In this document: positions 58,233 through 58,981 of the stretch, in pieces
How the letters are laid out: each line of letters opens with the position of its first letter
Position numbering within the stretch: position 1 is the first letter of the stretch
NCBI RefSeq assembly: GCF_000025285.1
Contig: NC_013741.1
Span: 930,001-994,000, forward strand
Length of the DNA stretch: 64,000 nt
Direction of reading: 5' to 3'
Source: Archaeoglobus profundus DSM 5631
GTDB taxonomy: Archaea > Halobacteriota > Archaeoglobi > Archaeoglobales > Archaeoglobaceae
Made by a program: the position numbers and the translations under genes
The notes under the pieces: generated by a model
Database searches by the model: none
What the model saw: the letters and a program-made list of their open reading frames with translations, nothing else
What the model was told of the DNA's origin: nothing

Positions 58233-58300
58233 TTATTCATTAATTTTAATAATTTTACAACCCCCAAGCACACACAAATTGCAACTACTAATTCAGTGAA
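58233..58300 (+). repeat. 68-bp inverted repeat, left arm
   Basis: Exact reverse complement of 58914-58981 over all 68 bases, with mismatches immediately outside. It contains CCCCCAAGCACACACAAATT. The arms enclose 613 bp. Confidence 0.95.
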
Positions 58301-58913
58301 AGGGTCACGTGGTTGGAGGATGATGGTCGCGAGGTCGCCGACCACCCTCTCCCTATCCCCTCTCTCCCTAACCCATCCTCAAATCATTCACAAAAAAGAT
58401 TGCTTCCTCTCTCTTGATCTCTCTTCTCTCTTTAAGACTCTTTAACGAAGATCTTTCTTCTCCTCTCTTCTCTTCTTGAACATAAGATTGTTTTTTATAG
58501 AGAAAGAAATATAATATGTCAAGTAAAAACCTATAAATAGATGTATATTGTGTAGTAGATTAGGAGACTAGATTTATGAATATAAGAAAAATAATAAAAA
58601 TAAATGAAAAGAAATGAATTATAAGAAGAAGAGAAGAAGATCTTTCTTGTAAAAGATTGGAAGAAAAAGAAGTTGTTGGAGAAGAAGATTGTTGAATTGA
58701 AGTGGGAGAACTTTCTTTTGTTTTGTTGAATGAAAAAAGTCGTCAGAGGAGAGAGCTTCTTTTTTCTAGAAGGTTTGGAAGATAAGTGGGGGTGGGGTTG
58801 ATTTGGTTCTTCGAAGTAGTAGTTGTAATTTGTGTGTGCTAATGTCTAGATGGTATAGATAATCTGTACTGTACAGATGGTATAGAAGAGGGTTTTGGTT
58901 GTTGTAGGATCTG

Positions 58914-58981
58914 TTCACTGAATTAGTAGTTGCAATTTGTGTGTGCTTGGGGGTTGTAAAATTATTAAAATTAATGAATAA
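58914..58981 (-). repeat. 68-bp inverted repeat, right arm
   Basis: Perfect partner of 58233-58300. A 24-nt portion recurs with one mismatch at 58817-58840 in the same orientation as this arm. Confidence 0.95.

Follow-up and report, generated by a model that had tools for sequence, protein, structure and literature searches.

Replication origins that lie beside orc/cdc6 genes in haloarchaea are described, in the available portions of two papers, as inverted repeats with a terminal G-string, arms of ~20–31 nt and a spacer of ~300–430 nt, placed around an AT-rich stretch next to cdc6 (PMC3528665, PMC4010727). For Archaeoglobus profundus, the accessible sections of the genome paper report one cdc6 gene (Arcpr_0001), argue for one origin and place a predicted chromosomal ORI between Arcpr_1540 and Arcpr_1543 (PMC3035285). 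The stretch of A. profundus DNA analysed here, referred to as the window (64,000 nucleotides; NC_013741.1, 930,001–994,000), contains a long inverted repeat beside another gene of the Orc1/Cdc6 family. This repeat region resembles a cdc6-adjacent origin in layout, not in box sequence, and on sequence comparison its best reading is as a candidate origin.

The inverted arms, at 58229–58300 (minus strand) and 58914–58985 (plus strand) of the window, are 72 nt long and 99% complementary, with one mismatch, and are separated by a spacer of 613 nt. As the single mismatch sits near the outer ends, the arms are perfect over 68 nt, the length given in an earlier note on this DNA. The pair scores 69, against 25 for the next best and a median of 5 when the window is divided into 1000-bp tiles, which excludes a chance occurrence. 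The 1.56-Mb genome has this pair once and no other like it (1,563,423 bases searched on two contigs, C1 accounting for 1,560,622). The arm pair fills an intergenic region and directly adjoins an orc1/cdc6 gene, cdc6-1, whose stop codon lies 73 bp from the end of the right arm. The locus thus shares with the haloarchaeal origins, as far as the available text describes them, inverted repeats around an AT-rich stretch beside cdc6 and the terminal G-string, whereas its arms and spacer are longer and its box sequence is unrelated (PMC3528665, PMC4010727). The predicted chromosomal ORI likewise has a pair of identical elements in inverted orientation, 1,264 b apart, but it is described in the accessible sections as using a 22-nt ORB and as lying far from cdc6 (PMC3035285); that ORB, TTTCCACAGGAAATAAAGGGGT, had no match in the window at up to three mismatches.

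Each arm carries a 24-nt box. The box of the left arm (TAGTAGTTGCAATTTGTGTGTGCT, 58267–58290, minus strand) is accompanied by a C-string and an AT-only outer stretch, and that of the right arm (58924–58947) is followed by a G-string and then by an AT-only stretch. A third, partial arm, already noticed in the earlier note, lies at 58813–58840 (plus strand; 28 nt, 93%) and includes an exact box at 58817–58840 without the G-string. The box, TAGTAGTTGYAATTTGTGTGTGCT, has three exact matches in the genome, all within the repeat region, the left copy inverted and the two right copies direct; it was found nowhere else in the 60 genomes searched, allowing up to three mismatches. The repeated boxes therefore stand in inverted orientation around an AT-rich stretch. 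They match neither the host ORB nor the ORB of cdc6-1 orthologues, and in 16 comparisons of the arm with noncoding DNA of relatives nothing rose above chance after the number of tests was counted (lowest values 2/200 and 8/200).

The core also holds the palindrome ATCTGTAC-T-GTACAGAT at 58862–58878 and two copies of AGATGGTATAGA (58849 and 58876), the palindrome and repeated words of the earlier note. A nested, diverged inner inverted pair (58376–58415 and 58626–58664) scores 34 versus 20.8 ± 2.65 in shuffled sequence, a value reached by 0 of 300 shuffles, and by 14 of 300 under looser scoring. Single-strand folding of the core is modest, with z-scores of −1.0 (plus strand) and −2.9 (minus strand) against whole shuffles, and −2.5 and −3.5, respectively, against half-preserving shuffles (40 each). 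The earlier statement that no gene is enclosed holds: only one ORF of 60 aa or more (58143–58445) overlaps the region, and Pfam gives no match to it at E ≤ 1. An Rfam search of the repeat region gave no credible match. The perfect identity of the arms suggests recent conversion or maintenance.

By nearest-neighbour energies, no 150-bp duplex in 159 kb is weaker than the one between the boxes, at 58481–58630, which makes this AT-rich centre a candidate duplex-unwinding element. With 100-bp windows on a 10-base grid, the repeat centre ranks second in instability, after 50541, and the GC content at 58560–58619 is 0.17. The largest GC-skew flip of the 159 kb (+1.13) spans 58050–58980, with the switch at ~58490; the second largest (1.01) is at 62570, at the opposite end of the cdc6 gene row.

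This row lies to the right of the repeat, all on the minus strand, in the order cdc6-1, a small Cys-rich ORF, a GINS-like gene and cdc6-2. The Cdc6-like neighbour of the earlier note is cdc6-1 (59059–60255), an Orc1/Cdc6 initiator by TIGR02928 (E 3.3e-71, 240 bits against a cut-off of 181.3) with intact Walker A and Walker B motifs; in the tree it groups with genes of elements, apart from chromosomal cdc6 (91/85 support, long branch). The second, weaker Orc1/Cdc6 protein, Cdc6-2 (61037–62341), falls under the TIGR02928 cut-off (141.5 versus 181.3 bits), and its Cdc6_lid and Cdc6_C (winged-helix) domains pass their own Pfam cut-offs. Its Walker B motif reads IDNFD, Asn replacing the Glu of the DE seen in 4/4 relatives read, and judged by this motif Cdc6-2 may lack ATP hydrolysis. 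Between the two genes, a 107-aa Cys-rich ORF (60300–60623) has a weak match to a PSV ORF131-like family (PF22415, E 0.003, 17.9 bits against a cut-off of 27). The adjoining protein (60627–61040) is GINS-like, corresponding to the A-domain part only; it matches Gins23 (NF053565, E 6.8e-6), a weak call by the curated cut-off (26 bits versus 120), and chromosomal GINS with E 2.6e-5 (1.4e-7 in a small set). A fold search with this protein returned archaeal GINS, 3anw_A, as the top hit (probability 0.99, E 0.22), with no match at E ≤ 0.001 and a DALI-like Z of ~8 that is common to unrelated helix bundles, and a PDB sequence search retrieved nothing relevant. No viral contig with both Cdc6 proteins was found.

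Among haloarchaeal loci with a relative of cdc6-1, 17 of 18 have an inverted repeat (score at least 18) on the 3′ side of the gene at a distance of up to 800 bp, compared with 2 of 201 control windows from the same loci; the 17 cases are not independent, because they are close relatives of each other, and the real evidence is smaller than the count. The proteins of all but one of the 18 loci, L012, form one tight group in the tree, and L012 is also the single miss, its inverted repeat sitting 5′ of cdc6. A nineteenth locus, L030, a partial match from a thaumarchaeon, is not included in these figures. In all 16 haloarchaeal arms listed, the C-rich end faces the gene, the same polarity as in the A. 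profundus arms. Two further loci, G002:C6 and G004:C75, encode a related Cdc6-1 initiator (41% and 39%), and in the G002 locus an AT-rich stretch is surrounded by boxes of either orientation. Unlike the A. profundus repeat, both have ORB-like boxes, TTACAAGTRGAAAT, which lie 5′ of cdc6-1, not 3′.

Beside the left arm, at 58037–58064 (plus strand), are two tandem copies of CATCTTAATTTAAG, a motif common to other cdc6-linked elements. The form CATCTTAATTYAAGG has nine matches in three of 60 genomes, each less than 2 kb from a cdc6 gene, and its reversed control has none: one match is in A. profundus, three are in G029, around the cdc6-2 orthologue, and five in G025, where they are spaced at 166 bp and an integrase gene separates them from a cdc6 gene 1.6 kb away. 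A 9-base core, ATCTTAATT, flanks three of four cdc6-2 orthologues. Only exact or near-exact matches count, because with two mismatches the longer form occurs in 7 of 60 genomes and its control in 8 of 60; at up to one mismatch there was one further match, in G036. No cdc6 was seen in the 3-kb loci around motif matches of G036, G006, G014 and G041, and loci of the same short length in G025 and G029 were also blank, though longer stretches of these show cdc6.

Because layout, position, duplex stability and this cdc6-linked motif agree, we regard the repeat as probably the origin region, with initiator-binding sites, of a once extrachromosomal replicon that has become part of the A. profundus chromosome. 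At such an origin, Cdc6-1, perhaps together with Cdc6-2 at CATCTTAATTYAAG, would bind the boxes from both sides, and the bound initiator would melt the AT-rich centre and load MCM. Helicase activation might then be assisted by the GINS-like protein, with two forks departing in opposite directions. The identity of the arms beyond the box could result from conversion between them. The earlier note had offered three guesses, of which the bidirectional origin is favoured by the adjacency to cdc6, the boxes around the weakest duplex, the skew flip and the haloarchaeal loci; a replication-termini structure found no support, and neither did the flipping segment discussed below. The tandem CATCTTAATTTAAG repeat, the skew flip, the nested inner pair and the array at 62686–63114 had not figured there.

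That array, of AAGTGG/AGTGGC repeats on the plus strand, is a second origin candidate, upstream of the cdc6 row and adjoining the skew flip at 62570; a polypurine stretch also adjoins it. It contains 19 copies of AGTGGC on one strand within 62687–63114 and, at 62737, the sole exact match in 159 kb to CAAGTGGAAAT, the ORB core of cdc6-1 orthologues. Since this ORB-like core occurs exactly once, in the array and not in the repeat, the array is a real competitor for the origin. The repeat would then be a secondary site, such as an initiator-titrating or negative-control cluster, and the origins of G002 and G004, which lie upstream of cdc6-1, fit such an arrangement. In Haloarcula, according to the portion of the paper available, a downstream ORB cluster restrains oriC2 (PMC4010727). 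The array has no inverted partner, however, its only inverted pair of at least 14 nt being 15 nt long and 87% identical, and it is the repeat, not the array, that holds the 150-bp stretch of least duplex stability. On balance, we consider it unlikely that the array is the true origin and the repeat the secondary site.

The motif flanking the left arm is possibly a site for a recombinase, because an integrase gene adjoins it in G025 and, by reading rather than by family search, an integrase-like ORF lies near it in G029. The G025 copies belong to a 166-bp tandem repeat (L125, 6981–7715) with five copies of CATCTTAATTCAAGG; beside it are the integrase gene and a cdc6 gene that is truncated, and a gene for a family-B DNA polymerase is nearby. 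Genes that adjoin cdc6 in G002 and G004 presumably encode ParA-like proteins. Both observations could be accommodated if the repeat served the same element in partition or recombination, either as a centromere-like site or as a set of arm-type integrase sites. Against this, neither a ParA-like protein nor an integrase was found among the module genes searched, and we judge such a role highly improbable.

Homologous recombination between such long perfect inverted arms could also flip the core. Apart from the arms we found nothing in favour of inversion: there is no gene in the core and no recombinase among the module genes searched, and the nearest resolvases are in a pair at 47972–49898 and at L032:4581–5408, ~10 kb away. 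An invertible segment is accordingly a very remote prospect. The pair at 47972–49898, which we take to be IS607-like, encodes a serine resolvase with an HTH and a TnpB-like (Cas12f1-like TNB) protein. Equally implausible is a non-autonomous transposon (MITE), which the 757-bp length and long terminal inverted repeats would suit, but which is contradicted by the single genomic copy where several would be required, by the lack of any match in a plasmid collection (distant blastn) and by the absence of a target duplication visible by eye.

Genes absent from relatives, together with initiators of its own that fall outside the host clade, are in keeping with an integrated element; a VWA-like gene at 51006, for instance, was found in one of 36 genomes, its own. 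The ends of the element were not found. Synteny with G002 is limited to 38181–42925 of the window, the longest direct repeat across the flanks is 17 bp, and the 121 kb examined contain neither a copy of the tRNA-Ile 3′ part, such as an att repeat from a split tRNA would leave, nor the second half of a truncated AAA_14 gene (57258–57467). Directly after tRNA-Ile, a block of ORFs at 50825–54047 encodes a 65-aa protein, a VWA-like protein and a ThiF-like protein. We had presumed this block to be a PRTRC cassette, an assignment that we reject: no PRTRC model matched 50825–51022, 52491–52793 or 53319–54047 at E ≤ 10, or the ThiF-like and VWA-like ORFs at E ≤ 0.01. A second, independent integrated element occupies 27807–35068, where a second copy of the 44-bp 3′ end of tRNA-Arg is found at 35025–35068. 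It encodes a BrxL/Lon-like AAA+ protein (29710–31722; PF13337, E 1.5e-11). With a home-made profile, residues 521–582 of this protein match the B-domain of GINS (E 1.7e-6), making it a helicase-like ATPase that carries a GINS-B tail.

A wider reading, which we put forward tentatively as a possibility, is that a two-initiator replicon has been captured by the chromosome of this hyperthermophile. It would have a candidate origin at each end of the module, the 72-nt inverted boxes serving one Cdc6 and the AAGTGGC array the other, and its own GINS A-domain protein, and it might still be able to fire as an extra origin. The locus adds two cdc6 genes and two origin candidates to a genome reported with one of each, and it bears on the gain of origins by archaeal chromosomes through replicon capture.
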